Positions 1,958-21,279 of a stretch of DNA of 64,000 nt are shown here, in pieces. Made by a program: the position numbers and the translations under genes. Position 1 is the stretch's first letter. The number at the start of each line of letters is the position of its first letter. The stretch covers positions 186,001 to 250,000 of the forward strand of contig JAVDKL010000003.1 of NCBI GenBank assembly GCA_030849965.1. Direction: 5' to 3'. The DNA is from Schauerella fraxinea. GTDB taxonomy: Bacteria; Pseudomonadota; Gammaproteobacteria; Burkholderiales; Burkholderiaceae_B. The notes below the pieces were generated by a model. It worked only from the letters and a program-made list of their open reading frames with translations, had not been told where the DNA came from and did not search any database.

Positions 1958-2922
1958 CAGTGGCCACCCCGTTGCTTCATCTTGGGATCGAGCATGTCGC
2001 GGGCGGTGTCGCCCAGCAGGTTCACAGCCAGCACGCAAGCCGACAGCACCAGGCCCGGCCAGTAGATCAGCGAAGGCTTGAGCTGGAAGTACATGCGGCC
2101 CTCCGAGATGATGTTGCCCCACGACGGCGTTTCGGTACCGATGCCGGCACCCAGAAACGACAGGATCGCCTCAGTGAGGATGGCGGACGCGCAGATGTAG
2201 GTGCCTTGCACGATCAACGGCGCGATCGTGTTGGGCACCAGATGGCGGCGCAGAATACGCGGCAGGCTGCTACCGAGCGAAATCGCGGCTTCCACATAAA
2301 GCTCTTCACGTGCCGACAGCACCACCGAGCGCACCAGGCGCACCACGCGCGGGATCTCGGGAATGGTGATCGCAATGATCAGGCTCCACATGCTCGAGCC
2401 CGACACCGCCACCACGGCAATCGCCAACAGCACGCTGGGGATGGCCATCAGGCCATCCATCACGCGCATCAAGATGGCGTCGAGCGTTTTGAAAAAGCCC
2501 GACAGCAACCCCAACGGCAAGCCAATCAGAATGCTGACGATGGCGACGCCCAGCCCGATGGTGAGCGACACGCGTGCGCCGTAAATGATGCGCGACAGGA
2601 TGTCGCGCCCGAACGCATCGGTGCCCAGCAGGTACATATCGCTGGAGGGCTTCAACCGCATCGCGGGCGTCATCGCCAGGGGATCGTGCGGCGCCAGCAG
2701 CGGTGCGAAGATCGCCATCAGGATCAACGCGATCACAACGAACGCCGAGATGGCGGGTGCCGCCTTCATGCGCCGCAAGCCGCTCAGGCTGTTGTGCAGC
2801 GATAGCCGGGCGGCGGGGGCGACGGGGGCGGCGGAAGTGGATGCGGCAGCCGTATTGATTCCGGCCGGCGTCGCGCCCGGTTTGGCGGCGCTTTGGGGGA
2901 GGTTTTTCGTGGTGGCTGTCAT
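1957..2922 (-). CDS. Peptide ABC transporter permease, DppC type
   Basis: A 321-residue inner-membrane permease. After an unusual Ala/Pro-rich N-terminal tail of about 50 residues there is a first membrane helix (AISAFVVIALILMAIFAPLL), then the DppC/OppC hallmark GTDAFGRDILSR and the cytoplasmic EAA loop beginning EAAISLGSS, which contacts the ATPase. It pairs with the DppB-type permease immediately upstream; the two genes overlap by one base (TGATG), as does this one with the downstream ATPase, which indicates translational coupling. The family is clear; the low-complexity N-terminal tail is probably a cytoplasmic extension without known role. Confidence 0.93.
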   Translation of the reverse strand: MTATTKNLPQSAAKPGATPAGINTAAASTSAAPVAPAARLSLHNSLSGLRRMKAAPAISAFVVIALILMAIFAPLLAPHDPLAMTPAMRLKPSSDMYLLGTDAFGRDILSRIIYGARVSLTIGLGVAIVSILIGLPLGLLSGFFKTLDAILMRVMDGLMAIPSVLLAIAVVAVSGSSMWSLIIAITIPEIPRVVRLVRSVVLSAREELYVEAAISLGSSLPRILRRHLVPNTIAPLIVQGTYICASAILTEAILSFLGAGIGTETPSWGNIISEGRMYFQLKPSLIYWPGLVLSACVLAVNLLGDTARDMLDPKMKQRGGH

Positions 2923-3863
2923 CAGTAACGAATCCTCGGATCGAGCGCACTGTAGGAAAGGTCGATCACCAGATTGATCAGCACGTACACGCCGCTGGTG
3001 GTGAGGATCAACCCTTGAATCACGGGATAGTCGCGCGCCAGGATGGCATCCACCGTGAGCCGCCCGAGGCCGGGGATGTTGAACACGCTTTCAGTCACCA
3101 CCACGCCGGAAATCAGCAGCGCGAAGCCGGTGCCGATCACGGTAAGAATGGGCACGGCCGCATTGCGCAGCGCGTGGCGAAACAGCACGATGATTTCGCT
3201 CAGGCCCTTGGCCCGCGCGGTGCGGATGTAGTCTTCCCCCAATACGGTGAGCAGGCTGGCGCGCGTCATGCGTGCGATCAGCGCCACGTAGATCGAGGCC
3301 AAAGTGAACGCCGGCAGAATCGACCGCTGCAGGAACGGCCAGAAGCCTTGCGTCCAGCTGCGATAGCCTTGCACCGGCAACCAGCGCAATTCGAGAGCGA
3401 AGATCTGCACCAGTACATAGCCGATCACGAACACCGGTACCGAGAAGCCGAGTACCGACATCGACATCACGAGGTTGTCGACCCAGCTCTGATGCTTCCA
3501 GGCGGCCAGCACGCCCAGCGGCACGGCGATCACGACGGCCAGGATGGCGGTCATCACGGCCAGGCTCAGCGTGGGTTCGAGGCGTTGGCCGATCAGGGTG
3601 GTGACCGGCGTGCCGGAAATGAGCGAGGTGCCCAGGTCGCCCTTCAACACGGTGCCGATCCAGCTGAAGAATTGCGTGAGCAATGGCTCGTTCAGGCCCA
3701 GCGCGGCGCGGATCTTGGCCAGTTGCTCGGGGGTGGCCATATCGCCGGCGATGATCGCGGCGGGATCCCCGGGGGTCAGTCGAAGCAGTAGGAAGACGAA
3801 TACCGCGACCACACCCATTACGGGGATGACCGCCAATATCCGCTTCAGGAAATAAGCAGGCAT
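2922..3863 (-). CDS. Peptide ABC transporter permease, DppB type
   Basis: A 313-residue permease. The N-terminus MPAYFLKRILAVIPVMGVVA is the first membrane helix of the DppB/OppB family, followed by the conserved LRLTPGDPAA. An EAA-like loop (RTARAKGLSE) and the C-terminal IPGLGRLTVDAI and DPRIRY match the family, and the length is normal. The gene lies 141 bases after the stop of the binding-protein gene and overlaps the next permease by one base. The 141-base gap shows only weak short hairpins and no clear terminator. Confidence 0.93.
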   Translation of the reverse strand: MPAYFLKRILAVIPVMGVVAVFVFLLLRLTPGDPAAIIAGDMATPEQLAKIRAALGLNEPLLTQFFSWIGTVLKGDLGTSLISGTPVTTLIGQRLEPTLSLAVMTAILAVVIAVPLGVLAAWKHQSWVDNLVMSMSVLGFSVPVFVIGYVLVQIFALELRWLPVQGYRSWTQGFWPFLQRSILPAFTLASIYVALIARMTRASLLTVLGEDYIRTARAKGLSEIIVLFRHALRNAAVPILTVIGTGFALLISGVVVTESVFNIPGLGRLTVDAILARDYPVIQGLILTTSGVYVLINLVIDLSYSALDPRIRY

Positions 3864-4004
3864 GTTGACTCTCGCTCAAACGGCGCGCGGAAGCTGAAGT
3901 GGGCCTGCGTGGCCCCGTTGCTCCCATGGGCGCGCGGTGGACCGGTTAAAGCATCTCGCCCGCGCCACGCACAACGTGCATGAGGCGGGCGGGGTGAAGA
4001 AGCC

Positions 4005-5624
4005 TTAATCGGCTTTGGACATGTTCCAGAACAACGGCACCGGTGCCTTGACGAGGCCGGTCAGCTTCTTGCTCATGGCCGCAGGCGCTTTGTAGGAGCC
4101 GAGCGGAATGTAGATGACCTGTTCCATCGCCTGCTGATGCACGGCAGCCGCGGCCGCTTTGCGATCTTCAGGCGTCTTGGCCGTGGTGAAGGCGGTGCGC
4201 AATTCTTCCAGCTTGGGATCCGTCGGCCAGCCGAACCAGCCTTCCTTGCCGCGGCCATTGACCATCGGATTGACCATCGGCGTCCACACCTCCGGAATCA
4301 CCCAGTTGGTGAAGAACATATTCCAGCCGCCATTGGCCGGGGCGTTAGTGCTCGCACGCCGGCTGACGAGCGTTTGCCAGTCCATCGGCTGCAGATCGAC
4401 CGTGAACCCGGCCTTACGCAGGAGCTGGGCTGCGATCACAGGCTGAGAGCTCACCGTGCTCACGTCGGTGGGATGCATGATCACGATGGGCTTGCCGTCG
4501 TAGCCGGCTTCTTTCAGCAACGCACGCGCCTTCTCCGGCTCTGCGCCCTTGGTGAGCGATGGGGGCGCACCGGCTGCGGTCTCAAACGGCACGCCGCAAC
4601 CGTACATCGAGGCACAAGGCGTGTAGTAGTCCTTGTTGCCGATGTAGGCTTGCAGAATGCTTTCCTGGTCGAGTGCCAGCATGGCGGCCTGACGGATCTT
4701 CAGGTTGTCGAAGGGCGGGTACAGAAAGTTCATGCGGCCCATCGTCTGGCTGCCCAGCTCGTTGAACACCGTGATCTGCAAGTCGTCGTTGTTCTGCAGG
4801 ATCGGCAAGAGATCGAGCGGGGGCGATTCGATGTAGTCGATTTCGTTCGAGTTCAACGCGCTCACCGCAGTTTGCGCATCGGGCATCGTCACCCATTCCA
4901 CGCGATCCACTTTGACCACCTTGCCGCCTGCCAAGAAATCCGCGGGTTCCTTGCGCGGCACGTAATCGGTGAACTTCTCATACACCGTCTTCACGCCAGG
5001 CACGTATTCCTTCTGCACGAATTTGAACGGGCCGGAGCCGATGTTTTCCTTGATCGCTTCCGACGACGGCGTGGCGGCCACGCGAGCCGGCATCATGAAT
5101 GCCGGTACCGCCGAGGGTTTGGCGATCATGTCCAGCGTATCGGCAAAAGGCGCTTTCAGCTTCAACTCGAACGTGCGCGCGTCCACAGCGGTGAGGCTGG
5201 CCGTGCGGTCCATCAGCATCTGTCCGCCCGCATCGCGCGAACCCCAACGCTTCAGTGATGCGATGCAGTCTTCGGACGTCACGGCCGCGCCGTCATGCCA
5301 CTTCAGGCCGTCGCGCAACGTGAACGTGTAGGTCAGGCCATCATCCGAGATCTTGTACTCGGCCATCTGCGGCGTGGGCTGGTACTTCGAATCCATCGAC
5401 AGCAGCGTGTCGTAAATCATGTACCCATGATTACGCACGATGTGCGCTGTGGTGATGATGGGATCGAGGATGCGGATGGGCGAGTGCATCACTGCCGTGA
5501 TCGTCTTGGCTTGCGCATCGCTTACCGGCAGCGCCGAGAAGGCGGCCGCGGCGGAGGCCAGAAGTGCGAGCGACAGGGCGCTGCGCACGAATCGGTTGAG
5601 GCGTAGGGGAGAGCGTGTGTGCAT
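4005..5624 (-). CDS. Peptide ABC transporter periplasmic binding protein (SBP family 5)
   Basis: A 539-residue solute-binding protein of the DppA/OppA family (SBP_bac_5). The chosen ATG at 5624 is preceded by AAGAGGA at ribosome-binding distance and opens a normal Sec signal peptide: basic start, hydrophobic stretch, then a likely cleavage after DAQA. The mature part begins with TITAVMHSPIRILDP and contains the family stretch YTFTLRDGLKWHDGAAVTSED. It captures the substrate in the periplasm and passes it to the two permeases downstream. As first gene of the operon it has its own upstream region, which is divergent from the amide operon. Confidence 0.92.
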   Translation of the reverse strand: MHTRSPLRLNRFVRSALSLALLASAAAAFSALPVSDAQAKTITAVMHSPIRILDPIITTAHIVRNHGYMIYDTLLSMDSKYQPTPQMAEYKISDDGLTYTFTLRDGLKWHDGAAVTSEDCIASLKRWGSRDAGGQMLMDRTASLTAVDARTFELKLKAPFADTLDMIAKPSAVPAFMMPARVAATPSSEAIKENIGSGPFKFVQKEYVPGVKTVYEKFTDYVPRKEPADFLAGGKVVKVDRVEWVTMPDAQTAVSALNSNEIDYIESPPLDLLPILQNNDDLQITVFNELGSQTMGRMNFLYPPFDNLKIRQAAMLALDQESILQAYIGNKDYYTPCASMYGCGVPFETAAGAPPSLTKGAEPEKARALLKEAGYDGKPIVIMHPTDVSTVSSQPVIAAQLLRKAGFTVDLQPMDWQTLVSRRASTNAPANGGWNMFFTNWVIPEVWTPMVNPMVNGRGKEGWFGWPTDPKLEELRTAFTTAKTPEDRKAAAAAVHQQAMEQVIYIPLGSYKAPAAMSKKLTGLVKAPVPLFWNMSKAD

Positions 5625-5988
5625 GCGCTGGAATCCTCTTGATGCGATGGTTGAGTCTGACGACTGAGTATGTCGAATTGCCGATGAAAAATCGAAGCTG
5701 TGAGTCAGCCTGAAGCCATTGAGAAGAGGCCGATTCTGCTTGGCGAAATTTGGCGGCGCAAGACCTTTCTCGATTGTTTTCAGTGCGTGCACGGAAGCGT
5801 GCAACGCGTCGTAGGGACGCTGTTTTTTGAACCAAATGAGTGCGTTAAAAATCACCGATGAGGTGCATGATTTGCGGCGTTGAAATGTGCGTGTTGTGTG
5901 GCATGCCTCGCCATGGGCTTGTTCATCATGTGCAAGCCAAATGTATGTTGCATGCGGGTATGTCCCTAGCACGCATCGATTGACACGC
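5625..5988. other. Divergent intergenic region between peptide and amide operons
   Basis: About 360 bases without a credible gene. It must hold the promoter of the peptide-binding protein (leftward) and of the amide operon leader (rightward). A weak sigma-70-like pair is visible rightward: TTGTTC at 5919-5924 and TGTATG at 5942-5947 with a 17-base spacer. The -10 is poor, so this is only a candidate. The frame of the binding protein stays open up to 5972 but has no signal-peptide logic or ribosome site there. Confidence 0.4.
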
Positions 5989-6061
5989 TATCGGCGCAGT
6001 TCCGATAATCGAGTCTCGGTGTGCGGACAACAGCGTCCCCGCCACGCAGCAACATTGCTGC
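5989..6061 (+). promoter_or_regulatory. Leader RNA hairpins upstream of the amide operon terminator (possible ANTAR target)
   Basis: Three small hairpins precede the terminator. TATCGG pairs with CCGATA (5989-5994 with 6002-6007, 7-base loop). GGAC pairs with GTCC (6025-6028 with 6035-6038) around hexaloop AACAGC. GCAGC pairs with GCTGC (6046-6050 with 6057-6061) around hexaloop AACATT. Two neighbouring hexaloop hairpins just before a terminator is the architecture known for ANTAR-protein targets, and an ANTAR protein is encoded at the end of this operon. The known consensus has A at loop position 1 and G at position 4. Here A1 is present in both loops but position 4 is A, so the match is partial. 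Confidence 0.5.
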
Positions 6062-6072
6062 CCTACCTATCC

Positions 6073-6125
6073 GGCTATATGAGCCCTCGAAACGTGCCTA
6101 GTGCGCGCTCGAGGGCTTTTTGTTT
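6073..6125 (+). terminator. Intrinsic terminator (attenuator) in the amide operon leader, with a competing hairpin
   Basis: AGCCCTCGA (6082-6090) pairs perfectly with TCGAGGGCT (6109-6117) around an 18-base loop, followed by TTTTTGTTTTC: an intrinsic terminator. It ends only about 14 bases before the nitrilase ATG, and no gene on this strand lies upstream to be terminated. That placement fits an attenuator controlling the operon. GGCT (6073-6076) can instead pair with AGCC (6082-6085), which uses part of the terminator's left arm and would exclude full terminator formation. Antitermination by the AmiR-like protein is inferred. Confidence 0.8.
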
Positions 6126-6138
6126 TCTTGGAGCATTC

Positions 6139-7029
6139 ATGTCTTCACCAACGCCAGCGGCGGAAGATTTTCCAGACGTCATCGTGGCGGCGATCCAGAT
6201 GGATTGCCGCGTGGGTCAGAAAGCCGATAACGTGGCGCGCTCGATCGTGCACATCGAAGCGGCGGCCGCGCAGGGCGCGCGCATCGTCGTGCTGCCGGAG
6301 CTGGCCAATACGGGGTACGTGTTCGCCAGCCGCGCCGAGGCGTTCAGCCTCGCCGAGCCGGTGCCGGCCGGCCCCACCAGCCAGGCCTGGATCGCCGCAG
6401 CCGCACGGCTGGGCATCTACATCGTGGCGGGCATCACCGAGCAGGATGGTCAACGGCTCTACAACGCGGCGGTGGTGATCGGGCCGCAAGGGTATCTGGG
6501 CACGTTTCGCAAGCTGCATCTGTGGGGCGACGAGCATCTGTTCTTCGAGGCGGGCGATCGTGGCTTGCCGGTGTTCGACACCGAATACGGCAAGCTCGGC
6601 GTCATCATCTGCTACGACGGGTGGTTTCCCGAGGTGTATCGCCTCATGGCCATGCAGGGGGTAGACATCGTGTGCATGCCCACCAACTGGGTGCCCATGC
6701 CCGCGCAGGATGCCCGTCATCCCACGATGGCCAACACGCTGGCGATGGCCAGCGCCCACAGCAATGGGCTGAACATCGTGTGCGCCGATCGCGTCGGTGT
6801 CGAGCGCGGCCAACCCTTTCTCGGCCAGAGCCTGATCGTCAGCTCGCAAGGCTGGCCACTGGCCGGCCCGGCCAGCGATGACGCCGAAGAGATTCTGTAT
6901 GCCCCCATCAACCTCAAACAGTCGCGCGGCGCGCGGCATCTCAATGCCTTCAACGTCGTCATGCGCGACCGCCGCGACGACGTGTACGACCCCATGCTCG
7001 GCACCGGCTGGCCGTTGCCCCGCAACTGA
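6139..7029 (+). CDS. Nitrilase-superfamily amidohydrolase
   Basis: A 296-residue carbon-nitrogen hydrolase. The catalytic triad is visible: Glu54 in VLPELANTGY, Lys125 in FRKLHLWG and Cys158 in VIICYDGWFPE. Start at ATG 6139 preceded by TTGGAG; a longer frame runs upstream through the leader terminator and is not credible. Such enzymes hydrolyse nitriles, aliphatic amides or N-carbamoyl compounds. Because the same operon encodes an AmiC-like amide sensor and a short-chain amide/urea type importer, a small amide or carbamoyl compound is the likely substrate. It takes the position that amidase (amiE) has in the Pseudomonas operon, but it is a shorter protein and the exact substrate cannot be read from sequence. 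Confidence 0.88.
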   Translation: MSSPTPAAEDFPDVIVAAIQMDCRVGQKADNVARSIVHIEAAAAQGARIVVLPELANTGYVFASRAEAFSLAEPVPAGPTSQAWIAAAARLGIYIVAGITEQDGQRLYNAAVVIGPQGYLGTFRKLHLWGDEHLFFEAGDRGLPVFDTEYGKLGVIICYDGWFPEVYRLMAMQGVDIVCMPTNWVPMPAQDARHPTMANTLAMASAHSNGLNIVCADRVGVERGQPFLGQSLIVSSQGWPLAGPASDDAEEILYAPINLKQSRGARHLNAFNVVMRDRRDDVYDPMLGTGWPLPRN

Positions 7030-7068
7030 GCGATCACGCTCGAGCTCATCTCCCTCACAGGAAGCATC

Positions 7069-8232
7069 ATGAACAATCCCTTTTCTTCGTTTCGTTTGAG
7101 TGCGTTGGCGGCCGCCAGTCTGTTGGCGGTGTCCGTGCAGGCGGCAGAGCCGATCAAGATCGGCGTGCCCGTCGGGCTATCGGGGGCCAATAGCGTGGTG
7201 GCACCCGCCGTAGTGCAGTCGTCCCAGCTTGCCGTCGACGAGATCAATGCCGCAGGCGGCATCCTCGGCCATCAGGTACAGCTGGAAATCGCTGACGATG
7301 GCTCGGGTGCGGTGGGCGCGCAAAAGGCGTTCGACACGCTGGTCTTCCAGAAGAAGGTGGACGCCGTCATCGGCATGGAAACGAGCGCCGCCCGAAGCGC
7401 GGCCCTGCCCATCGTGGCACGCGGCAAGACGCCGTATATCTACACCTCGTTTTACGAGGGCCGCTCGTGCAGCAAGTGGATGTATGTGAACGGTTGGGTG
7501 CCGGAGCAGCAGGTGGCACCCGTGGTGGATTACTTCACCAAGGAAAAGAAGGCCAAGACGTTTTTCCTGATCGGCAGCGATTACTCGTTCGGCCGCGGCA
7601 TGTTGTCGTTTACCAAGAAGTACATCGAGCAAACCGGCGGCAAGGTGGTGGGCGAAGAGTACTTGCCCATGGACGGCAGCGACTGGACGGCGATCGTCTC
7701 GAAGATTCGCTCGGCCAACCCCGATGCGCTCATCAGCTCCACGGCGGGCGGTGCACCCAACGTGTCGTTGGCCAAGCAACTGCAGGGCGCAGGCTTGAAG
7801 CAACCCTACGGCAACCTGGCGATCGACGAAGGCACGGCGAAGACCATGGGCGCGGTGGCTACGGGCATGTATCTGTCGGCGTCGTATCTGACGAGTATCG
7901 ACACGCCTGAGAACAAGCGCTTCATCGCCGCGATGACCAAGAAATTCGGCAACGATCTGAAAACCCCGAACGAGTTGTCCGAGCCGCAGTACGAGGCGTT
8001 CTTCCTCTACAAGGCGGCGGTCGAAAAGGCCGGCAGCACGGATAGCGAGAAAGTCATCGCCGCGCTGGCGGAGGTGTCGTTCAAGGGCCCGCGCGGTGTG
8101 GTGCAGATGAACAAGAGCCGGCATGCGGCACTGGCCATGCAGTTGGGTGAAGTGCAGGCCGATGGCTCGATCAAGATCCTGCAAACGTTCCCGAGCGTGG
8201 ATCCGGGCCCCCAGTGCCCGAACATTAAGTAA
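7069..8232 (+). CDS. Amide/urea/branched-chain amino acid type ABC transporter binding protein
   Basis: A 387-residue periplasmic binding protein (Peripla_BP_5/6 type) with a clear Sec signal: MNNPFSSFRLSALAAASLLA, cleavage near VQAAEPIKIG. Sequence features include IKIGVPVGLSG, DEINAAGGILGHQV and FFLIGSDYSFGRGM. It is a recognisable paralogue of the cytosolic AmiC-like protein at 11652 (compare SFYEG and FLIGSDY in both). It would deliver the substrate to the LivH/LivM-G/F importer encoded next. GGAAG lies before the ATG, 39 bases after the nitrilase stop. Confidence 0.9.
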   Translation: MNNPFSSFRLSALAAASLLAVSVQAAEPIKIGVPVGLSGANSVVAPAVVQSSQLAVDEINAAGGILGHQVQLEIADDGSGAVGAQKAFDTLVFQKKVDAVIGMETSAARSAALPIVARGKTPYIYTSFYEGRSCSKWMYVNGWVPEQQVAPVVDYFTKEKKAKTFFLIGSDYSFGRGMLSFTKKYIEQTGGKVVGEEYLPMDGSDWTAIVSKIRSANPDALISSTAGGAPNVSLAKQLQGAGLKQPYGNLAIDEGTAKTMGAVATGMYLSASYLTSIDTPENKRFIAAMTKKFGNDLKTPNELSEPQYEAFFLYKAAVEKAGSTDSEKVIAALAEVSFKGPRGVVQMNKSRHAALAMQLGEVQADGSIKILQTFPSVDPGPQCPNIK

Positions 8233-8258
8233 GACCCGCGGGCTATCGGAGAACGATT

Positions 8259-9092
8259 ATGGCTTTACTACTGGATGTGCTCACCACCGCGGCGATGTTG
8301 TTCATCGTCACGGCCGGGCTGATGATGATCTTCGGCGTGATGAAGATCGTCAACTTCGCGCACGGTGCACTGCTCACGATGGGCGGCTACGTCAGCTACG
8401 TGGTCACGCATCTCAAACTCGATCCCTGGCTGAGCTGGCCGCTGGCCTTTGTGTGCGGCATGGTGGCGGGCTTGATCATCGAGTATCTGGTAGTGAGGCC
8501 GTTGTACAAGCGGCCGCTGGACGCGATCCTGGCCACCTGGGGCCTGGGCATCATCATCGGGCAACTGATCGTGATCGCGTTCGGCCGCGAAGTGCAGTTC
8601 ACCAATACGCCGCTGGACGGCATGTGGACGCTCGCCGGTACCGGCTACTCGGCCTATCGGCTGCTGCTGATTCCGGTGGCGGTAGTGCTGTGCGTGGTGC
8701 TCACGGCCCTGCTCAACGGCACGCGCTTCGGTGTGAACACGCGTGCCGTCATCATGAATGAAACCCTGGCGAGCGGGCTCGGCATCAATGCCGGCCGCAT
8801 TCGCTTCATCACCTTCAGCCTGGGCGCGGGCTTGGGCACCTTGGCCGGCACGCTGGTGTCGCCGTTGTCCAGTGTGGACCCCAACATGGGCGTGGGCTGG
8901 CTGGTCAGCGCGTTCATGCTTGTGATGGTGTCGGGCCATTCCATGGTCAGTTTGATGGCGACCTGCCTGGTGTTCGGCGCGGCGCAAGTGCTGGTCAGCA
9001 TCTACTTCAGCCCCGTGTTGGGCGGCCTGACGATCGCGGTGCTTGCGGCGCTCACCCTTCGTATTCGTCCTAAAGGATTCGCGCATGACTGA
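8259..9092 (+). CDS. ABC transporter permease, LivH/UrtB type
   Basis: A 277-residue inner-membrane permease of the LivH family (BPD_transp_2). The typical features are FGVMKIVNFAHGALLTMGGY near the start, several hydrophobic helices and RAVIMNETLASGLGIN, the cytoplasmic loop. It lies 26 bases after the binding-protein gene with GGAG upstream, and its last 8 bases overlap the start of the permease-ATPase fusion, indicating coupling. It forms the membrane pore with the LivM half of the next protein. Confidence 0.92.
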   Translation: MALLLDVLTTAAMLFIVTAGLMMIFGVMKIVNFAHGALLTMGGYVSYVVTHLKLDPWLSWPLAFVCGMVAGLIIEYLVVRPLYKRPLDAILATWGLGIIIGQLIVIAFGREVQFTNTPLDGMWTLAGTGYSAYRLLLIPVAVVLCVVLTALLNGTRFGVNTRAVIMNETLASGLGINAGRIRFITFSLGAGLGTLAGTLVSPLSSVDPNMGVGWLVSAFMLVMVSGHSMVSLMATCLVFGAAQVLVSIYFSPVLGGLTIAVLAALTLRIRPKGFAHD

Positions 9093-10923
9093 CGCTACTG
9101 TTGCCGCGCGGACCCCACGCAAACCGGTTTCGGTGGCCGGCTTGGCCGCCTTGGGCGGACTCGGCCTGGCCCTTGTGGTGGTGGGCCCGTATGTGTTCGA
9201 CACGTATCTGTTGAACATCCTGATCAAGGCATTCTTCTTTGCCATCGCTGCCATCACGGTAGATGTGCTGTGGGGCTACACCGGGTACCTCACCTTCGGT
9301 CAATCGGCCTTCTTCGGTGTGGGCGCGTATGCGGCCGGGCTGATCTTTACGCATTACGGATTCTCGGCCGCCACGGTGGCGGCGGCGGTTGGGGCGGCGA
9401 TCGTCTGCACCGGGCTTCTGGCCGCGCTCGTGGGCTGGCTGTCGTTCTATCGCGGGGCCTCGCCGTTTTTCGCCACCGTGATTTCGCTCGTCGTGCCGAT
9501 CGTCCTTTCGCAGTTGCTGCTGTCGGGCGGGGAATGGACGGGTTCGAGCTCCGGGCTCACCGGCTACGAAACCTTCGACTGGTCGCTCGAGGCGTGGTTT
9601 TGGGTGTCGGGCGGCGCGTTGCTCGTGGTGGGCACGATCGCCTGGCTCGCCATGCGCAGTGACGGTGGACGGGTGCTCACCGCTATCCGCGACAACGAAT
9701 CGCGCTGCGAGTATCTGGGCATCCGCGTCTCGCGCGTGAAAATCATGCTGTTGATCGCCATGGGTATCGTGGCGGGCCTGGCTGGCTTCGGCTATGGCGC
9801 TTTCAGCGGCGTGGTCGCGCCCGAGCTCTCCGGTTTCGTGCTCGGCACCGAACTCATCATCTGGGTGGCCCTGGGCGGACGCGGCACCTTGTGGGGGCCA
9901 TTGATCGGCGCGGTGCTCATCAACGTCGCCAGCGCCTACCTGAGCGGCAGCATGCCGTTTGCCTGGCAACTTATCCTGGGCAGCGCGTTCGTAGCGGTGA
10001 TCGTGCTGTTGCCGCAAGGGCTGATTCCCTTGCTGCTGCGCCCGTTTGGGTTTGGACGGCATACTGCGACGACGCCGGATTTGATCGAGCGCCCCTTGCC
10101 GCCGGTCGACACCGCCGATACGTCGCCGGCCTTGGTCATGCAAGACGTCACACGCCGCTTCGGGTCGCTGCACGTGCTGCAGGGCATCTCGTTCTCAGCG
10201 CATGCCGGCGAACTGGTGGGGCTGATCGGGCCCAACGGTGCGGGCAAGACCACGCTGATGCGCTGCATGAGCGATGGGGCAGACCGCACCAGTGGCAATG
10301 TGGCCTTGTGCGGCAACGATATCGGCCGCCTGTCGCCGCAGGCCTGCGTGCGCTTCGGTCTCGGCCGCAAGTTCCAAAATGCCAACGTGTTCGAGAGCCT
10401 CACGGTAGGCGAAAGCCTGCGTATCGCGGGTACCTTGCTGGAGCGGCCATCGCTCTGGCGCCGCTCGCAGGTATTAGCGTTGCCCGCCTATGCCCTCGAC
10501 GTGGTGCGCACCACCGGGCTCGACCACAAGCTCGATGCCGTGGCGCGCGATCTCTCGCATGGCGAGCAGCAAGCGCTTGAACTGGCCATGGTGCTCGCCC
10601 TGGCGCCGCGCATCGTGTTGCTGGACGAGCCGACTGCGGGTTTGAGCAAGCATGAACGCACACAGATCGGGGAGATCCTCAGCGCCTTGGCGCACCGCTA
10701 CGGCTTGTGCTGCCTGCTGGTGGAACACGATCTCGACTTCGTCGAGCAGATCGCCACCCGCATCGTGGTGCTGCATCAGGGCAAGCTGGTGATGGAAGGC
10801 AGCTTCCAGGACGTGGTCAATTCGGAGCTCGTGCGCAACATCTATGCGGGTACGGCGCAACCGGTGCCGGATGCGCCGAAAGAAGATCCACCCCGATCCG
10901 ATACCTCGAAGGAGTCGACATGA
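9085..10923 (+). CDS. Fused LivM permease and LivG ATPase of ABC transporter
   Basis: A 612-residue fusion. Residues about 25-320 are a LivM/UrtC-type permease (VDVLWGYTGYLTFGQSAFFG, AIRDNESRCEYLGIRVS). Residues about 350-595 are a LivG/UrtD-type ATPase with Walker A GPNGAGKTT, signature LSHGEQQ and Walker B IVLLDEPTAG, ending with a short Pro/charged tail. In most genomes these are two separate genes. The ATG at 9085 (MTDATVAA) overlaps the livH stop by 8 bases; an earlier in-frame ATG at 9043 lies inside livH and is less likely. The start of the LivF gene overlaps its stop (ATGA). Confidence 0.92.
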   Translation: MTDATVAARTPRKPVSVAGLAALGGLGLALVVVGPYVFDTYLLNILIKAFFFAIAAITVDVLWGYTGYLTFGQSAFFGVGAYAAGLIFTHYGFSAATVAAAVGAAIVCTGLLAALVGWLSFYRGASPFFATVISLVVPIVLSQLLLSGGEWTGSSSGLTGYETFDWSLEAWFWVSGGALLVVGTIAWLAMRSDGGRVLTAIRDNESRCEYLGIRVSRVKIMLLIAMGIVAGLAGFGYGAFSGVVAPELSGFVLGTELIIWVALGGRGTLWGPLIGAVLINVASAYLSGSMPFAWQLILGSAFVAVIVLLPQGLIPLLLRPFGFGRHTATTPDLIERPLPPVDTADTSPALVMQDVTRRFGSLHVLQGISFSAHAGELVGLIGPNGAGKTTLMRCMSDGADRTSGNVALCGNDIGRLSPQACVRFGLGRKFQNANVFESLTVGESLRIAGTLLERPSLWRRSQVLALPAYALDVVRTTGLDHKLDAVARDLSHGEQQALELAMVLALAPRIVLLDEPTAGLSKHERTQIGEILSALAHRYGLCCLLVEHDLDFVEQIATRIVVLHQGKLVMEGSFQDVVNSELVRNIYAGTAQPVPDAPKEDPPRSDTSKEST

Positions 10924-11621
10924 GCAGCTTGCAACTCCAGGGCGTGAGCAGCGGCTATAAAGCCTCGGTGGTGCTGCGCGATCTGTCGCTCGATATCGCT
11001 GCGGGCGAAGCCGTGGCGCTTTTGGGCAAGAACGGCATGGGCAAGAGCACGCTGCTCAAAACCATCATGGGCTATCTGCCCAAGCACAGCGGCCACGTGC
11101 GGCTCGACGGCACCGACATCACCCGTACCGCGCCGCACCGCGTGGCACGCATGGGCGTGGCCTATGCCGCGCAAGAGCAGGCCATCTTCGCCGACCTCAG
11201 CATCCGCGACAACCTGCGCATCGGGCTGGCGCGCGAAGGCGATTTCGCGGCGCGGTTCGACGCCATCGAGCCGATCTTTCCGGTGTTCAAGACGCGGCTC
11301 AAGCAATACGCCGGCACGCTCTCGGGCGGCGAACAGAAAATGCTGCTTGTGGCCCGTGCGCTGATGATGCGGCCATCCGTTATTCTCTTGGACGAAATCA
11401 CCGAAGGCTTGCAGCCCTCGGTCATCGACCGGTTGGCGCAAGCGTTACTCTGGGAACGGAAGACGCACGGCACCACCATGCTGGTGATCGAGCAAAACGT
11501 GGCGTTCGCCCTGCAGGTAGCCGATCGTTTCGTGGTGCTCAAGCAAGGCGAGATCGTCGAACAGGGCAATGCACGCGACACAACCGCCGCTGAAACCGTC
11601 TTCGCCTACTTGCGCGTGTGA
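10920..11621 (+). CDS. ABC transporter ATP-binding protein, LivF/UrtE type
   Basis: A 233-residue ATPase with Walker A GKNGMGKST, a signature region LSGGEQKMLLVARALM and Walker B VILLDEITEGLQP, all typical of LivF/UrtE. The ATG at 10920 overlaps the stop of the permease-ATPase gene (ATGA) with GGAGT upstream. It completes the importer as the second nucleotide-binding subunit, giving a full five-domain transporter encoded by four genes. Confidence 0.93.
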   Translation: MSSLQLQGVSSGYKASVVLRDLSLDIAAGEAVALLGKNGMGKSTLLKTIMGYLPKHSGHVRLDGTDITRTAPHRVARMGVAYAAQEQAIFADLSIRDNLRIGLAREGDFAARFDAIEPIFPVFKTRLKQYAGTLSGGEQKMLLVARALMMRPSVILLDEITEGLQPSVIDRLAQALLWERKTHGTTMLVIEQNVAFALQVADRFVVLKQGEIVEQGNARDTTAAETVFAYLRV

Positions 11622-11651
11622 CGGGCATCAACGGCCGATAAAGGTAAACAC

Positions 11652-12794
11652 ATGGCGGCTCTCAAGCCCGCATCGTCGGATTGGCCCATCGGTATTCTGT
11701 TCTCGCGCACCGGCGTGACCGGCGTGACGGGAAACGAACACTTCCTGGGCACCGCATTGGCCATCGAGGAAATCAACGCGCAAGGCGGCGTACTCGATCG
11801 GCTGTTGGCGCCGGTGGTGTACGACCCCAAGAGCGACCCCGAAGAGTATCGACGGCTCGCCACGCGCCTCATGACTGAAGATGACGTCAACGTGATCTTC
11901 GGCTGCAGCACGTCGTCCAGCCGCAAGGCCGTGCTGCCGGTGATCGAGCGCAACAACGGCCTGCTCTGGTATTGCTCGTTCTACGAGGGCTTCGAGTACT
12001 CGCCCAACGTGATCTACACCGGTGCCGTGCTCAACCAGAACAGCATGCAACTGGCGGCGTACCTGCTGCAAAACAAAGGCTCGCGGTTTTTCCTTGTGGG
12101 GTCGGACTACATCTACCCGCGCGAATCCAATCGCGTCATGCGCGATATGGTCGAGCAGCATGGCGGCGAGATCCTGGACGAGGTGTATCTACCGCTGTCG
12201 GCCGGCCCTGATGACGTGGCCGAGGTGATCCGCGACATCCAGGCCGCGCAGCCCGAGGTGGTGTTTTCGACCGTGGTGGGTGATTCGGCCCGCACGCTTT
12301 ACACGCAGTACGCGCAGAGCGGCATGGATCCCAAGCAGGTGCCCATCGCCAGCCTCTCGATGGCCGAGGAAGAGATCCGCCTGATCGGGCCGGAACTGTG
12401 CGTGGGCCACATCACCGCCGCCACCTATTTCAACTCACTCGACAACGATAGCAATCGCCGCTTTACCGCGCTGTGGCGCAGCCGCTATGGCGATCGGCCT
12501 ACTAGCACCTGGTCGGAAACGGCGTACAACCAGGTGCACCTTTTCGCGCGTGCGCTGGAGCGCAACGGCAGCCTGGACACCGCCAAACTCGTGCGCACGG
12601 CGCATTCGGTGCGCTACGACTCGCCCGAAGGCCAGCTCGAGATCGACGCGGAAAATAATCACTGCCTGCTCACCCCGCGCATCGGCATGTGCAACGCAGC
12701 TGGTCAATTCGACGTGATCTGGCAAGGCTCCGCGCCCGTCAAACCCGATCCTTACCTGAGCAGTTTCGGCTTGGCCGAATTCTGGCTGGCCTAG
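11652..12794 (+). CDS. AmiC-like cytosolic amide sensor / negative regulator
   Basis: A 380-residue protein of the Peripla_BP_5 fold without any signal peptide: it starts MAALKPASSDWPIGILFSRT. The family includes AmiC of Pseudomonas, which holds AmiR inactive until a small amide binds. AmiC-like stretches include AIEEINAQGGVLDR, STSSSRKAVLPV and FFLVGSDYIYPRESN. Immediately downstream (4 bases) is an ANTAR-domain gene, the same amiC-amiR order. Lack of a signal peptide distinguishes it from the operon's own transport binding protein, of which it is a paralogue. It most likely senses the imported amide and releases AmiR. Alternative: a cytosol-retained transport protein, less likely given the neighbour. 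Confidence 0.88.
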   Translation: MAALKPASSDWPIGILFSRTGVTGVTGNEHFLGTALAIEEINAQGGVLDRLLAPVVYDPKSDPEEYRRLATRLMTEDDVNVIFGCSTSSSRKAVLPVIERNNGLLWYCSFYEGFEYSPNVIYTGAVLNQNSMQLAAYLLQNKGSRFFLVGSDYIYPRESNRVMRDMVEQHGGEILDEVYLPLSAGPDDVAEVIRDIQAAQPEVVFSTVVGDSARTLYTQYAQSGMDPKQVPIASLSMAEEEIRLIGPELCVGHITAATYFNSLDNDSNRRFTALWRSRYGDRPTSTWSETAYNQVHLFARALERNGSLDTAKLVRTAHSVRYDSPEGQLEIDAENNHCLLTPRIGMCNAAGQFDVIWQGSAPVKPDPYLSSFGLAEFWLA

Positions 12795-12798
12795 CGCG

Positions 12799-13413
12799 AT
12801 GAGCAGCATCCGCCGACTTTATGAAGACCTGCGCAGCATTTGCGTGGCCGTCGTGCATCCCCCAGGCGAAGATCGCGACCTGCTGATCGAGCAGCTCAAG
12901 CGCATCGGTTGCCGCCTGCAGATCGTATGGCCGTTTCCCACCGAGATTCCGGCAGGGGCCGATGTGATCTTCTTTCACGTGTCGCAAGATCTACCGGGCG
13001 GCGGCATCTGGTGCGCAAGCTCTTGCGACGCCACATTGATCGCGCTGTCCGACTACGAAAGCCCCACCACGCTGAAGTTGCTGCTCGATACCAGCGCACA
13101 CGGCGTGCTGACCAAGCCGTTTCGGTCATCCGGCGTGCTGAGCACCCTGGTGCTGGCCCGTTCCGCGCAAGGCTTTCAGCAGCGGCAGCAAGCCAAGATC
13201 AGGAAGCTTGAAGAAACGATCAAGTCGCGCCGCATGATCGACAAGGCCATCAAAGTGCTGGTGGACAACCAAGGCATGAACGACGTGCAAGCCTACGAAC
13301 ACATGCGCGCACGGGCGACTAGCCTGCGCATCACCGTGGCCGAAGTGGCAGCCATGGCGATCGATGCGCAGGAAGCGATGGAGAAGTTGGGATTGGGGAA
13401 GGCGGGGCGGTGA
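12799..13413 (+). CDS. AmiR-like ANTAR-domain antiterminator
   Basis: A 204-residue protein with an N-terminal pseudo-receiver region (about 10-130; no clear phospho-Asp setting), a coiled-coil stretch around QRQQAKIRKLEETIKSRR and a C-terminal ANTAR domain (MIDKAIKVLVDNQGMNDVQA, then ITVAEVAAMAIDAQ). ANTAR proteins bind paired hairpins in leader RNA and prevent terminator formation. Its natural target would be the terminator-bearing leader at 5989-6125 in front of the nitrilase. The AmiC-like gene is 4 bases upstream. The family assignment is strong; the RNA target is inferred. Confidence 0.88.
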   Translation: MSSIRRLYEDLRSICVAVVHPPGEDRDLLIEQLKRIGCRLQIVWPFPTEIPAGADVIFFHVSQDLPGGGIWCASSCDATLIALSDYESPTTLKLLLDTSAHGVLTKPFRSSGVLSTLVLARSAQGFQQRQQAKIRKLEETIKSRRMIDKAIKVLVDNQGMNDVQAYEHMRARATSLRITVAEVAAMAIDAQEAMEKLGLGKAGR

Positions 13414-16838: not shown

Positions 16839-18464
16839 ATGACGATCGATCACAAGGCCTTGTTGGCCGAGCGACTTGCTGCGGGCTTCGGACGCCGGCA
16901 GTTTCTGAAGACGGCGGCTGCAGGCGCCGGATTGATGGCCGCGTCCACGGTGGGCCTGCCGGCCCTGGCGCAAGGCACGCCCAAGCGCGGCGGCACCATC
17001 AAGCTCGCGTGGGTGGAAGCCATCGACACGCTCGATCCGCATTTCACGGCGTCCTCGGGATCGATCAAAGTCATCAACAATGTTTTCAACGGCCTGCTCA
17101 AAGTGTCGTACGACGGCAAGCGCGTGAGTTTCGTGCCCGATCTCGCCACAAGCTGGGACATGCCGGATGAGAAAACGCACATCTTCAAGCTGCGCCCCGG
17201 CGTGAAGTTTCACAATGGCGACGTGTGCGATGCCGAAGCGGTGAAGTGGAGCCTGGAACGCGTCAAGGACCCCGCCGTGAAGTCGCCGCACGGTTGGAAG
17301 TTCGCGCAGTTGGCGAGTGTGGAGGTGGTCGACGCGCAAACCGTCAAACTGAACTTCAACAAACCCTACGCCTTCTTGCCCGTGGCGTTGACCGGCAGCA
17401 CCGGGCGCGCCGGCACCATCGTCTGCAAGAGCGCGATCGAGAAAGATCCCAAGGCGTATGGCCGCGCACCCGTGGGCACCGGCCCCTTCCGCCTCGTGGC
17501 CTGGCGCGAAAATCAAGGCATCGAACTCGCCCGCAATCCCGATTACTTCGAAGCCGGCAAGCCGTTGCTCGATGCCGTGCAGATTCAGTTGATCAAAGAA
17601 CCTAGCGCAGCAGTGGCCGCCATGATGTCGGGCCAGGTCGACGGTATGTCGGTCTGCCCGTTCCAGTTCATCCCGCAACTGCGCAAGAGCCCCAACGTAT
17701 CGGTGTACGGCCAGGTGGAAGGCAACTACGCTTTCGTGGGCATGAACAACAAACGCGGCCCATTCGCCGATCCCATGTTGCGCCGCGCCGTGGCCTTCGC
17801 CATCAACCGCAAAACCATCGTCGAGCAAAGTTACTTCGGCGAAGCCATCCCCGCTTACAGCTGCATTTCGCCGCCGATGTCCGATTTCTACGATCCCAAG
17901 ATTGCCGAGTCGGGGCGTGGGCAGTTCTTCGATCTCGAAAAAGCCAAGGCATTTCGCGCGAAAGCCCAAACGCAAGGTGAGGTCAATCCCGTGTTCATCG
18001 TGACCGACGGCTTTACCGGCTCGGGCGGCATGGGCACCCGCAACGCACAGCTCATCGCGCCCATGTTGGCCGAAATCGGCATCAAGCCCAAGATCGAACT
18101 CGTCGATCGCGCGGTGTGGACCAGCCGTCGCAACGCCGGTGACTTCGATATGTATGACGAAGCCTGGGTCGCCGATCTGGACCCCGATGAAACAATCTAT
18201 CCCGAATGGGCCACCGGCAAACCGTGGAACTTCGTGGGCTACAGCAATCCCGATTTCGACAATGCCTGCATGGCCGCGCAAGACATCATCGACCCCGCCA
18301 AGCGCCGCGGGCTCTACGTCAAGGCCGAAGACGTCTTGATGGCCGATGCGCCGCTGGCCGTGCTCGCGCACATGAAGGTGTTCAAGATTCTGTCGAAGAA
18401 AGTGCAGGGTTATGAGTACGTGCCGGCCGATTTGCTGGACCTGCACAACGTGTGGTTGTCGTAA
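16839..18464 (+). CDS. ABC transporter periplasmic binding protein, SBP family 5
   Basis: A 541-residue binding protein with a twin-arginine-like signal (GRRQFLKTAAAGAGLMAAS, then LPALAQG). The mature part shows RGGTIKLAWVEAIDTLDPH, THIFKLRPGVKFHNGDV and GTGPFRLVAW, all typical of the DppA/OppA group. GAAGGA lies upstream of the ATG. First gene of a complete five-gene importer (binding protein, two permeases, two ATPases) behind a GntR regulator. Use of a Tat-type rather than Sec signal, if real, would differ from the first peptide importer in this window. Confidence 0.92.
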   Translation: MTIDHKALLAERLAAGFGRRQFLKTAAAGAGLMAASTVGLPALAQGTPKRGGTIKLAWVEAIDTLDPHFTASSGSIKVINNVFNGLLKVSYDGKRVSFVPDLATSWDMPDEKTHIFKLRPGVKFHNGDVCDAEAVKWSLERVKDPAVKSPHGWKFAQLASVEVVDAQTVKLNFNKPYAFLPVALTGSTGRAGTIVCKSAIEKDPKAYGRAPVGTGPFRLVAWRENQGIELARNPDYFEAGKPLLDAVQIQLIKEPSAAVAAMMSGQVDGMSVCPFQFIPQLRKSPNVSVYGQVEGNYAFVGMNNKRGPFADPMLRRAVAFAINRKTIVEQSYFGEAIPAYSCISPPMSDFYDPKIAESGRGQFFDLEKAKAFRAKAQTQGEVNPVFIVTDGFTGSGGMGTRNAQLIAPMLAEIGIKPKIELVDRAVWTSRRNAGDFDMYDEAWVADLDPDETIYPEWATGKPWNFVGYSNPDFDNACMAAQDIIDPAKRRGLYVKAEDVLMADAPLAVLAHMKVFKILSKKVQGYEYVPADLLDLHNVWLS

Positions 18465-18465
18465 C

Positions 18466-19422
18466 GTGCTGGGCCGCCGACTCCTGGGCGCGGCCAGCCA
18501 GACCCTGCTGGTGCTGCTGGTCGTCTCGGTCGTGAGCTTTGGATTTTTGAAGCTTGCGCCGGGCGATCCCGTGGCGTTGATGCTGGGGTCGGACTACTCG
18601 CGCGATTCGTACGACAAGCTCTACAACGATCTTGGGCTGAACCAGCCGTTGCCGGTGCAATATGCCGACTGGCTGGTGCGCTTCGTGCAAGGCGATTGGG
18701 GCACGTCGTATGTGAGCCACCAGAACATCTTCGAGCAGGCGGTGCTGCAGGCGCTGCCGGTTACGCTCACGCTGGCGGCCTTCTCGCTGCTGATTGCGCT
18801 GGCGGTGGGGATTCCGCTGGGCGTGGTGGCAGCCGTGCGGCGCAATAGCTGGGTTGATATGCTCGCCAGCACCCTGGCCATCGGCGGCAATGCGTTTCCC
18901 AGCTTCTATCTCGGTGTGGTGTTCATCTGGATTTTCGGGGTGTCGCTGGGCTGGTTTCCCACCATGGGTTTCGTCGCGCCCTGGGACGACCTCGGACAAG
19001 GCCTGTGGCATCTCACCTTGCCCGCGATCACGTTGGGCGCCTGGTACGTGGGGCTGATCGCAACGGTGACCCGATCCAGTCTGCTCGACGTGCTGGCGCA
19101 ACCCTATATGGCGGCCGCCAGAGCGCGCGGTGAGCCTGGCTGGCGCGTGATCTGGGTGCATGGCATGCGCAACGTGCTCATGCCGCTCATCACCGTGATC
19201 GGCCTGCAACTGGGCGGCATGCTGCGCGGCGCCGTGATGACTGAAGTCGTGTTCACCTTGCCCGGGCTGGGCATGATGATCACCACCGCCGTGCAAAGCC
19301 GCGAATACATCGTCGTGCAAGCCGGCATCATGATCACCGCCTTGCTCTTCATCGTCGTCAATTTCCTGGTCGATCAAACCTACGTGTTCCTCGATCCAAG
19401 GCTGAGAAAACATGGCCGTTGA
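18466..19422 (+). CDS. ABC transporter permease, DppB type
   Basis: A 318-residue permease. I place the start at GTG 18466, one base after the binding-protein stop, because it gives the normal N-terminus (LGRRLLGAASQTLLVLLVVS) directly ahead of the first helix; an ATG at 18412 would lie inside the upstream gene. Family features are FLKLAPGDPVALML, the EAA-like loop ARARGEPGWRVIWVHGMRN and FTLPGLGMMI. The last 11 bases overlap the next permease gene. Confidence 0.9.
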   Translation: MLGRRLLGAASQTLLVLLVVSVVSFGFLKLAPGDPVALMLGSDYSRDSYDKLYNDLGLNQPLPVQYADWLVRFVQGDWGTSYVSHQNIFEQAVLQALPVTLTLAAFSLLIALAVGIPLGVVAAVRRNSWVDMLASTLAIGGNAFPSFYLGVVFIWIFGVSLGWFPTMGFVAPWDDLGQGLWHLTLPAITLGAWYVGLIATVTRSSLLDVLAQPYMAAARARGEPGWRVIWVHGMRNVLMPLITVIGLQLGGMLRGAVMTEVVFTLPGLGMMITTAVQSREYIVVQAGIMITALLFIVVNFLVDQTYVFLDPRLRKHGR

Positions 19423-20287
19423 ACTCTCGCCCCGCGCGACGCGGCCCGCCCGCGTGGGTAGGCTGTGGAAAAAGCTGAGCGCGCAACGCAAAGCGATGGT
19501 GGGCTTCATCATCGTGATGGTGTTCGTGCTTGCCGCGGTCTTTGCCCCGGTGCTCTCGCCTTACGGTCCCACCGAGCAGATTTTCATGGACGCCATGCAG
19601 CCGCCCTCGGCCACGCATTGGTTGGGCACCGATTCGTTCGGCCAGGATCTCTACACCCGGCTGTTGTACGGTGCGCGATCAGCGTTATGGATCGGCTTCG
19701 CTTCGGTCGCCGTTGGCTTGGTGGGCGGGGTGGCCCTCGGGCTACTAGCCGGTTTGCGCGGCGGACGCACCGAATGGGCCATCATGCGCGTGGTCGACGG
19801 CCTGCTCGCCTTTCCAGAACTCATCATGGCCATGGCCTTCATGGCGATTTTTGGATTGGGGCTATCGAACATCGTTTGGGCGCTCGGCCTTTCGTTCGTC
19901 GGCCCCTTCGCACGCATGGTGCGCGCCGATGTACTCCAGGTGAAAGAGCGCCCCTTCGTCGAAGCCGCGCGCCTCATGGGCGTGCCGCCGCGCGACATCG
20001 TCATGCGCCACATCCTGCCCAATATCGCGTCGCCCATTCTTATCCAGGCCGGCATGCGCGTGTCCATTGCCATCTTGTTGGGCTCCGGACTGTCATTCCT
20101 GGGCCTGGGCGTGGTGCCGCCGATGCCCGACTGGGGGCTCATGATCTCGGAAGGCCGCGGCTTCATCACCATGGCACCGTGGATGTCCGGCGTACCCGGC
20201 CTGGCGCTCGCCATCTTGCTGGTCGGGCTCAATCTTTTTGCGGAAGGCTTGCGCGATGCGCTCGATCCCCGCATCCGCCCGGAGTGA
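19412..20287 (+). CDS. ABC transporter permease, DppC type
   Basis: A 291-residue permease with the DppC hallmark GTDSFGQDLYTRLLYGARSA, the EAA loop EAARLMGVPPRDIVMRHILP and LDPRIRPE at the end. It begins inside the tail of the DppB-type gene (11-base overlap). It forms the second half of the pore of this importer. Confidence 0.93.
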   Translation: MAVELSPRATRPARVGRLWKKLSAQRKAMVGFIIVMVFVLAAVFAPVLSPYGPTEQIFMDAMQPPSATHWLGTDSFGQDLYTRLLYGARSALWIGFASVAVGLVGGVALGLLAGLRGGRTEWAIMRVVDGLLAFPELIMAMAFMAIFGLGLSNIVWALGLSFVGPFARMVRADVLQVKERPFVEAARLMGVPPRDIVMRHILPNIASPILIQAGMRVSIAILLGSGLSFLGLGVVPPMPDWGLMISEGRGFITMAPWMSGVPGLALAILLVGLNLFAEGLRDALDPRIRPE

Positions 20288-20330
20288 TGGCGATGCACAT
20301 GCTCAGTCTCAAAGCCGAAGGCCGTTTCGC

Positions 20331-21272
20331 ATGATGCCGACGCCGATGCTCACCATTGAAAACCTCACGCTGAAACGTCGCGGCGTGGCCGTGCTTGATG
20401 ACGTGTCGATCACACTCGCGCGGGGCCGGTCGTTGGCGCTCATCGGCGAATCCGGCGCCGGTAAATCCACGTTGGCATTCGCCATCATGGGATTGCTGCG
20501 TCCGCCCGAAGTCGCGCTGCAAGGCCGCCTCTTGGTGGGCGACGCCGATGTCGCCTTGCTTTCCGAGCGGCAACTGCGGCCGTTGCGCGGCTCGCGCATG
20601 GGGCTGATATTTCAGGACGCCACCGCCGCGCTCAATCCCTGTTTTACGGTGCTGCAGCATGTGTCGGAGCCGCTGCGCCGGCATCGCAGGATGAGCGCGT
20701 CACAGTGCCAGCAGCGCGCAATTGAGCTGCTCGACAGCGTGGGCATCGCCGATCCGGAACGTCGTCTCAAGGCGTTCCCGCATGAGCTCTCCGGCGGCAT
20801 GCAACAGCGCGTGATGATCGCCATTGCGCTTGCGTGCGAACCCGAATTGCTGCTTGCCGATGAACCCACCAGTGCGCTGGACGTGACGATTCAGGCGCAG
20901 ATCATGACGTTGATTCTGGAGCGGGTGCGTGCGTTGAATGCCTCGGTGATTTTTGTATTGCACGACCTGGCATTGGCCTCGCAAGCGGCCGACGACGTGG
21001 CGGTCATGTATGCCGGGCAGATCGTCGAGACCGGGCCTGCCGCGGAAGTGCTCAATGCCCCGCAGCATCCGTATACGCAAGGTCTGCGCGCCAGCGCCAT
21101 CGAACTGGGGGCTGCACGGCTCAAACCCATAGCGGGCGTGGTGCCGTCGTTGTCAAGCATGCCGGGCGGGTGCCGCTTCGCACCGCGCTGCGTGCGCGCC
21201 ACTGAACAATGCGCCACCCGCCCGGCATTGACGCCACGTGGCACGCGCGCCATTGCGTGCTGGCATGCCTAG
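20331..21272 (+). CDS. ABC transporter ATP-binding protein, DppD type
   Basis: A 313-residue ATPase: Walker A GESGAGKST, signature LSGGMQQRVMIAIALA, Walker B LLLADEPTSALD. The C-terminal part carries the Cys-containing oligopeptide-ATPase extension (GGCRFAPRCVRATEQC), which in DppD/OppD relatives can hold an iron-sulfur cluster. Two adjacent ATGs (20331, 20334) are possible starts; nothing decides between them. A frame beginning further upstream overlaps the permease and is not needed. Confidence 0.9.
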   Translation: MMPTPMLTIENLTLKRRGVAVLDDVSITLARGRSLALIGESGAGKSTLAFAIMGLLRPPEVALQGRLLVGDADVALLSERQLRPLRGSRMGLIFQDATAALNPCFTVLQHVSEPLRRHRRMSASQCQQRAIELLDSVGIADPERRLKAFPHELSGGMQQRVMIAIALACEPELLLADEPTSALDVTIQAQIMTLILERVRALNASVIFVLHDLALASQAADDVAVMYAGQIVETGPAAEVLNAPQHPYTQGLRASAIELGAARLKPIAGVVPSLSSMPGGCRFAPRCVRATEQCATRPALTPRGTRAIACWHA

Positions 21273-21279
21273 GATGGCT

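Follow-up and report, generated by a model that had tools for sequence, protein, structure and literature searches.

What do an AmiC-like sensor and an AmiR-like ANTAR protein control when they are encoded behind a hydrolase and a complete ABC importer, and to which compound do they respond? A seven-gene locus in the window (the whole 64,000-nucleotide stretch of DNA analysed here) raises these questions. In the amidase operon of P. aeruginosa, AmiE is encoded together with AmiC and AmiR, and the regulator genes lie downstream of the enzyme gene. The AmiC-AmiR mechanism of that organism is ligand-controlled antitermination, as far as the available text of PMC3369931 describes it. We conclude that the locus in the window is very probably an operon of the AmiC-AmiR kind that is induced by a ligand, regulates itself, and serves uptake and hydrolysis. 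What it presents is a known control principle on a widespread, uncharacterised module.

The operon and its leader RNA

Seven plus-strand genes run in one direction from 6139 to 13413, in the order hydrolase, importer, AmiC-like protein, and AmiR-like protein, with successive intergenic gaps of 39, 26, -8, -4, 30, and 4 nt. This agrees with the initial annotation, which had listed a nitrilase, a full Liv/Urt-type importer, an AmiC-like protein, and an ANTAR protein encoded co-directionally. The first gene (6139-7029) encodes the nitrilase-superfamily hydrolase P0001 (PF00795, 184.8 bits), in which the E-K-C triad of the superfamily is found, by motif, at the putative catalytic residues E54, K125, and C158. 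Among proteins of solved structure, PH0642 and the P. abyssi nitrilase are closest to it. Against the aliphatic amidase (AmiE) model it scored only 59.9 bits, the cut-off for an AmiE enzyme being 427, and P0001 reached the cut-off of none of the NCBIfam models. Next come a periplasmic substrate-binding protein, P0002 (7069-8232), with a signal peptide recognized by eye, and three proteins identified by profile matches: a UrtB/LivH-like permease, P0003 (8259-9092), a UrtC-UrtD (LivM-LivG) permease-ATPase fusion, P0004 (9085-10923), and a UrtE/LivF-like ATPase, P0005 (10920-11621). P0004 is a single 612-aa protein in which the permease is fused to the ATPase, a fusion that was absent from the initial annotation. 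The curated Urt cut-offs were not reached by the UrtA (254 against 492.75 bits), UrtB (187.6 against 250.3 bits), or UrtE (229.4 against 285.8 bits) counterparts. The AmiC-like ligand sensor P0006 (11652-12794) has no signal peptide by eye and is presumably cytoplasmic, in keeping with the cytosolic location previously proposed for it; an AmiC-like protein of this kind adjoining AmiR is a feature of AmiC-AmiR operons. The AmiR-like antiterminator P0007 (12799-13413) combines AmiR_N (126.7 bits) and ANTAR (38.8 bits) domains, both above the Pfam cut-offs, and matches the AmiR of 1qo0 with an E value of 2.1e-25. P0006 matches the AmiC of 1pea with an E value of 3.1e-89, on par with the receptor 8tg1 (1e-89), and the homology of P0006 to AmiC and of P0007 to AmiR spans nearly their full length. 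Oligopeptide-type ABC transporter genes lie on both flanks, at 2922-5621 on the minus strand and 16839-22437 on the plus strand, as judged from PF00496, BPD_transp_1, and oligo_HPY matches, with the minus-strand permease at 2922-3863 recognized by eye.

AmiC/AmiR-type control of the operon itself had been proposed from a stretch in which it could not be seen, the leader that supports it lying outside that stretch, at 5980-6130 on the plus strand. The leader begins with a sigma70-like promoter, TTGACA-18-GATAAT (5980-6009), which has 11 of 12 consensus matches; a search of 8.4 kb found two such sites against 2.0 expected. Next come an upstream hairpin, P0 (ggacAACAGCgtcc; 6025-6038), which is not alike in all relatives, and the hexaloop hairpin P1 (gcagc-AACATT-gctgc; 6046-6061), the presumed AmiR site, with A at loop positions 1 and 4. 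Hairpin P2 (GGC-TATATGA-GCC; 6073-6085), the presumed antiterminator, has a 7-nt loop and overlaps the 5' arm of an intrinsic terminator (6081-6129; arms 6081-6090 and 6109-6118, with a U-rich tract to 6129). Since P2 and the terminator both use 6081-6085, they should be mutually exclusive. A GGAG sequence and the ATG of the hydrolase gene follow the terminator.

Published ANTAR targets, in the available text of PMC3369931, have two hairpins with hexaloops carrying A1 and G4, the second overlapping a terminator. The P1 loop in the window has A at position 4 in place of the canonical G, and the P2 loop has 7 nt, so the strict consensus of two such hexaloops is absent; judged by its sequence, the leader is related in kind to ANTAR target RNAs while not matching that consensus. 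A search of the window at Rfam gathering thresholds returned one tRNA and nothing else, and thus no curated family reached threshold at the leader. P0 and P1 were considered as a classical hairpin pair and rejected; in the relatives it is P2, overlapping the terminator, that is the constant partner. P0 lies just 5' of P1 in many leaders, and in L076 to L078 its loop resembles the P1 loop. The covariance model R1, for which the window supplied one of 37 training rows, matched 6046-6121 with an E value of 2.5e-9 and nothing else clearly in the window's own genome (next best E, 0.88), 150 of 3533 first-look candidates having been scored. Antitermination of the operon by its own AmiC/AmiR pair, as first proposed, thereby gains sequence-level support.

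Conservation of the module and its leader

Relatives were taken from an AmiR alignment, as the best 80 of 105 confirmed loci, among which the closest named AmiR relative is Achromobacter aestuarii (99%). The gene-order comparison suggested by the initial annotation found the full set of seven genes in co-linear arrangement in 76 of 88 related records, a tally in which L019 and L039, like L020 and L083, are the same places and L087 falls below the script's score filter. Such co-linearity is more than chance. The 76 complete loci comprise 43 in the window's order and 33 with AmiC-AmiR first; of the 12 incomplete records, eight run into contig ends, L021 is limited by the extent retrieved, and L033, L053, and L070 are uncut. 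One seven-gene module has thus spread over many alpha- and betaproteobacteria. The AmiR alignment (E <=1e-12) had matches in 53 of 397 genomes at the phylum level and in 10 of 370 at the class level, a considerable share of these matches being confined to the C-terminal half, and an AmiE-type alignment (E <=1e-25) had matches in 25 of 399 genomes of the order. Tandem double-nitrilase proteins of about 560 to 615 aa are encoded within 10 kb of AmiC-AmiR genes in L156, L158, L146, and L120; the L158 protein has two PF00795 stretches, and the second domains in this group seemingly lack the catalytic Cys (by eye). In L030, L032, and L035, nitrilase homologues without AmiC-AmiR nearby lie beside genes annotated as amidohydrolases or amidotransferases.

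The initial annotation had set the nitrilase against AmiE and presented the complete ABC importer as the partner in place of AmiS. That contrast was overstated, because AmiE itself belongs to the nitrilase superfamily and the combination of an AmiC-AmiR operon with an ABC importer has already been published: the available part of PMC13209695 describes a Klebsiella plasmid amiE-amiC-amiR operon with four ABC genes. Such operons also occur among the relatives, where AmiC-AmiR, AmiE, and an ABC importer are encoded in one direction in L119, L135, and L136, and the AmiE-type loci with an importer L022 and L025 have divergent AmiC-AmiR regulators. What is new is the non-AmiE enzyme lineage in an AmiC-AmiR setting, the leader, and the leader's spread; a literature search that scarcely covered subscription journals found no description of the nitrilase module or of the residue-loop code discussed below.

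Among 87 operon starts examined, P2 and the terminator were present at 83 of the 83 linked to AmiR (at most 81 distinct places, given the two repeats noted above) and at none of the four without AmiR in the stretch (L030, L032, L035, and L036). L036 carries an importer, so its AmiR may lie elsewhere. Of the 83, 78 have a P1 hexaloop whose stem reaches 4 pairs or more, and five lack P1 by the script's measure; among the four Paracoccus loci, three are without a P1 stem of 4. At loop positions 1 and 4, the 78 have A and G in 53, A and A in 14, C and T in 8, G and C in 2, and C and G in 1. Under a stricter leader criterion 72 of 83 qualified and eleven failed, against a mean of 0.2 of 83 and a maximum of 1 over 20 sets of shuffles that were meant to preserve dinucleotides, plain shuffles being used where the dinucleotide method failed. 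A promoter-like site stands at a similar place in 47 of the 83 leaders (4% expected in letter shuffles). In a 37-row alignment, 94.6% of the cells of P1 and the terminator are paired, and the covariation score is 0.389. Shuffles gave 0.203, none of 500 reaching the observed score, and slid versions gave no more than 0.149. P1 is 100% paired, and both partners have changed in 3 of its 5 pairs; the terminator is 91.9% paired, and the same holds for 6 of its 10. At P2 the rows of the window and of Variovorax are shifted by one base in this alignment, and the shift weighs against the structure. The 3 pairs of P2, which hardly vary, show no covariation by themselves. The leader moves with the operon start: where AmiC-AmiR come first it sits between amiR and the nitrilase gene, and it precedes the binding-protein gene where that gene opens the operon (L021, L033, and L117; also L184 and L186). 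Across 61 relatives R1 gave ten matches with E <0.01, four of them at known AmiR operons (2.5e-9 or better); the other six are weak (5.6e-4 or worse) and probably due to chance. L135 and L136, both AmiE-type, each have three leader-model matches, two of them closely spaced near the binding-protein gene.

By analogy with the AmiC-AmiR system of P. aeruginosa and with EutV, transcription would start near 6016 and, with no ligand present, would stop at the terminator (6081-6129) because AmiC would keep AmiR inactive. The importer would take up a small amide-like nitrogen compound, which AmiC would bind in the cytoplasm, releasing AmiR. AmiR would then grip P1 and favour P2, and, the 3' arm of P2 being part of the 5' arm of the terminator, RNA polymerase would read into all seven genes, including those for AmiC and AmiR themselves. 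The hydrolase would cleave the compound with release of ammonia or an amine, and amide scavenging, the role originally suggested, is what we infer for the operon. The leader could alternatively be an attenuator read by some other factor, with AmiC-AmiR acting elsewhere, given that binding of AmiR to the leader is presumed from sequence and that the genome holds a second ANTAR gene. We consider this highly improbable, since the leader accompanies AmiR (83/83 against 0/4) and persists when the gene order changes, since no further clear model match was found among the 150 of 3533 candidates scored in the genome, and since the second ANTAR protein differs, by eye, in its N-terminal part, which is longer. 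That second gene lies at C3:23289-23447 (L001), and the long N-terminal part of its product looks, we presume, NasR-like.

AmiR residue 162 and the fourth base of the P1 loop

The A4 loop in the window raises the question of how an ANTAR protein chooses its RNA. In EutV, according to the available text of PMC8934654, Glu160 hydrogen-bonds G4 of P2 and the E160A change costs 60-fold in affinity. Through an aligned Tyr this residue corresponds to AmiR residue 162, with an inferred two-residue offset to that paper's numbering, and P0007 has Asp there. In a thinned set of 65 rows, in which L040 represents Variovorax, P1 loops starting with A have G4 in 43 Glu162 rows and A4 in 3 (L040, L127, and L130), against A4 in 11 of 11 non-Glu rows and G4 in none; this count leaves out the Glu rows whose P1 loop does not start with A (L084, L085, L086, L089, L099, and L113), one with G4 and five without it. 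L127 and L130, which run against the rule, are among loci added after the link was first seen. Twenty further loci gave 18 readable P1 hairpins (none in L180 or L182), with G4 in 13 of 13 Glu rows and A4 in 3 of 3 non-Glu rows, two of the 18 being repeats (L185 of L117 and L188 of L076). In L181 some 2.5 kb separate the leader from the binding-protein gene downstream, which makes the assignment of this leader less sure, and in L121, L178, and L181 a mismatch adjoins the closing pair of P1. Six distant loci with Asp162 AmiR proteins (L137, L142, L145, L148, L152, and L154) showed no credible leader and were counted neither way. The relation of residue 162 to P2 position 4 is weaker in the thinned set (Glu, 45 G4 and 7 not; non-Glu, 1 G4 and 9 not).

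The tree requires at least 5 changes of residue 162. There are 4 independent pairs on supported branches, of which 3.4 on average go in the same direction and none in the opposite one (median p, 0.25), too few for significance. Residue 160 of EutV also lies at the dimer interface (PMC8934654, available text), which gives it another reason to vary, and an alanine at E359 of NasR, in the same region and perhaps at the equivalent position, leaves binding near normal (PMC7496416, available text). Variovorax, the sister clade of the window, combines A4 with Glu, so base 4 may have changed before residue 162. A one-residue/one-base code, in which Glu162 AmiR proteins mostly go with G4 and proteins that have lost Glu (to Asp, Ile, Ala, Arg, or Lys) go with A4 loops of the form AACA--, the window being of the A4 type, is a tentative proposal, which we think nearly as likely to be right as wrong. 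If it is true, ANTAR specificity would be predictable, and distinct switches could operate in parallel within the same cell.

Ligand of the module and comparison with known systems

The contacts of UrtA with urea include W120, S122, Q144, Y190, and N246 in the available text of PMC10392092. P0002 has E, S, F, Y, and G at those positions and hence lacks the urea pocket, and the same five residues recur in 81 of 86 rows of binding proteins from nitrilase modules (UrtA numbering; rows include repeats); of the five deviating rows, three (L156, L158, and L085) look like other binding proteins. The AmiC-like proteins have S at position 120 in 75 of 85 rows printed, repeats included, and the AmiC proteins of AmiE modules have Y in 10 of 10. 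Elsewhere in the window's own genome a separate UrtA-like protein is encoded that, by eye, does have the urea residues. From these pocket residues and the separate UrtA-like protein, our best reading is that the module would share a single ligand, which would not be urea and probably not acetamide.

The locus could instead be an ordinary AmiE-like acetamide/formamide or urea system, with the same ligands and a different hydrolase, as might be thought from the closeness of P0002 to UrtA and of P0006 to AmiC and from the urease genes that adjoin the module in some relatives. The replacement of W120, Q144, and N246 by E, F, and G in the 81 module binding proteins, the contrast between Ser and Tyr at AmiC position 120, the separate UrtA-like protein, and the unmet Urt model cut-offs all speak against this, and we judge it unlikely. 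Somewhat less unlikely, although still doubtful, is a substrate with two hydrolysable nitrogens (a diamide or ureide): P0001-type enzymes would remove the first, and the other would fall to a second amidohydrolase encoded within the operon or outside it. Unrelated amidohydrolases do occupy the position next to the module: an amidase-signature protein at 24 of 43 loci of one gene order and 11 of 33 of the other, urease at 4 of 33 loci of the latter order, and, inside the module in three loci (L045, L047, and L054), an asparaginase-family gene at the place of the amidase-signature gene in other Paraburkholderia-group loci. The L035 nitrilase homologue outside the module likewise adjoins an annotated asparaginase. 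However, by this count 37 of the 76 complete loci, including the window's nearest relative, L039, have neither amidase nor urease (the three asparaginase loci fall within the 37), and urease and amidases act on different compounds, so that the neighbours may serve other imported amides. Biuret and urea were also considered as substrates on account of the urease and amidase neighbours, and nothing singles either out.

With the single shared ligand as the preferred reading, a single ligand screen could, given the conserved pocket of the binding proteins, identify the substrate of the entire family. A guessed regulator pair has become a defined RNA switch with a likely target, and a testable rule for the choice of RNA by ANTAR proteins is offered.

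P0001 keeps the E-K-C motif of PH0642 and the P. abyssi nitrilase and differs from them in its longer ends and in extra residues after the catalytic Cys region. The importer has the kinds of transport subunits found in the urea importer UrtABCDE, but with a permease-ATPase fusion and with the urea-contact residues replaced. Like the EutV target RNA, as described in the available texts of PMC3369931 and PMC8934654, the leader has A1 in the P1 loop and a pair of small hairpins, of which the second overlaps an intrinsic terminator; it differs in A4 of P1, the 7-nt P2 loop, and the extra hairpin P0 upstream. The Klebsiella plasmid operon likewise unites AmiC and AmiR with an enzyme of the amidase type and an ABC importer, but its enzyme is AmiE and the available part of PMC13209695, on which this comparison is based, describes no leader. 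The amidase operon of P. aeruginosa shares with the window the AmiC sensor, an AmiR composed of pseudoreceiver and ANTAR domains, a leader terminator, and regulators downstream of the enzyme, whereas the window has a non-AmiE enzyme, a complete ABC importer, a different sensor pocket, and an A4 loop.
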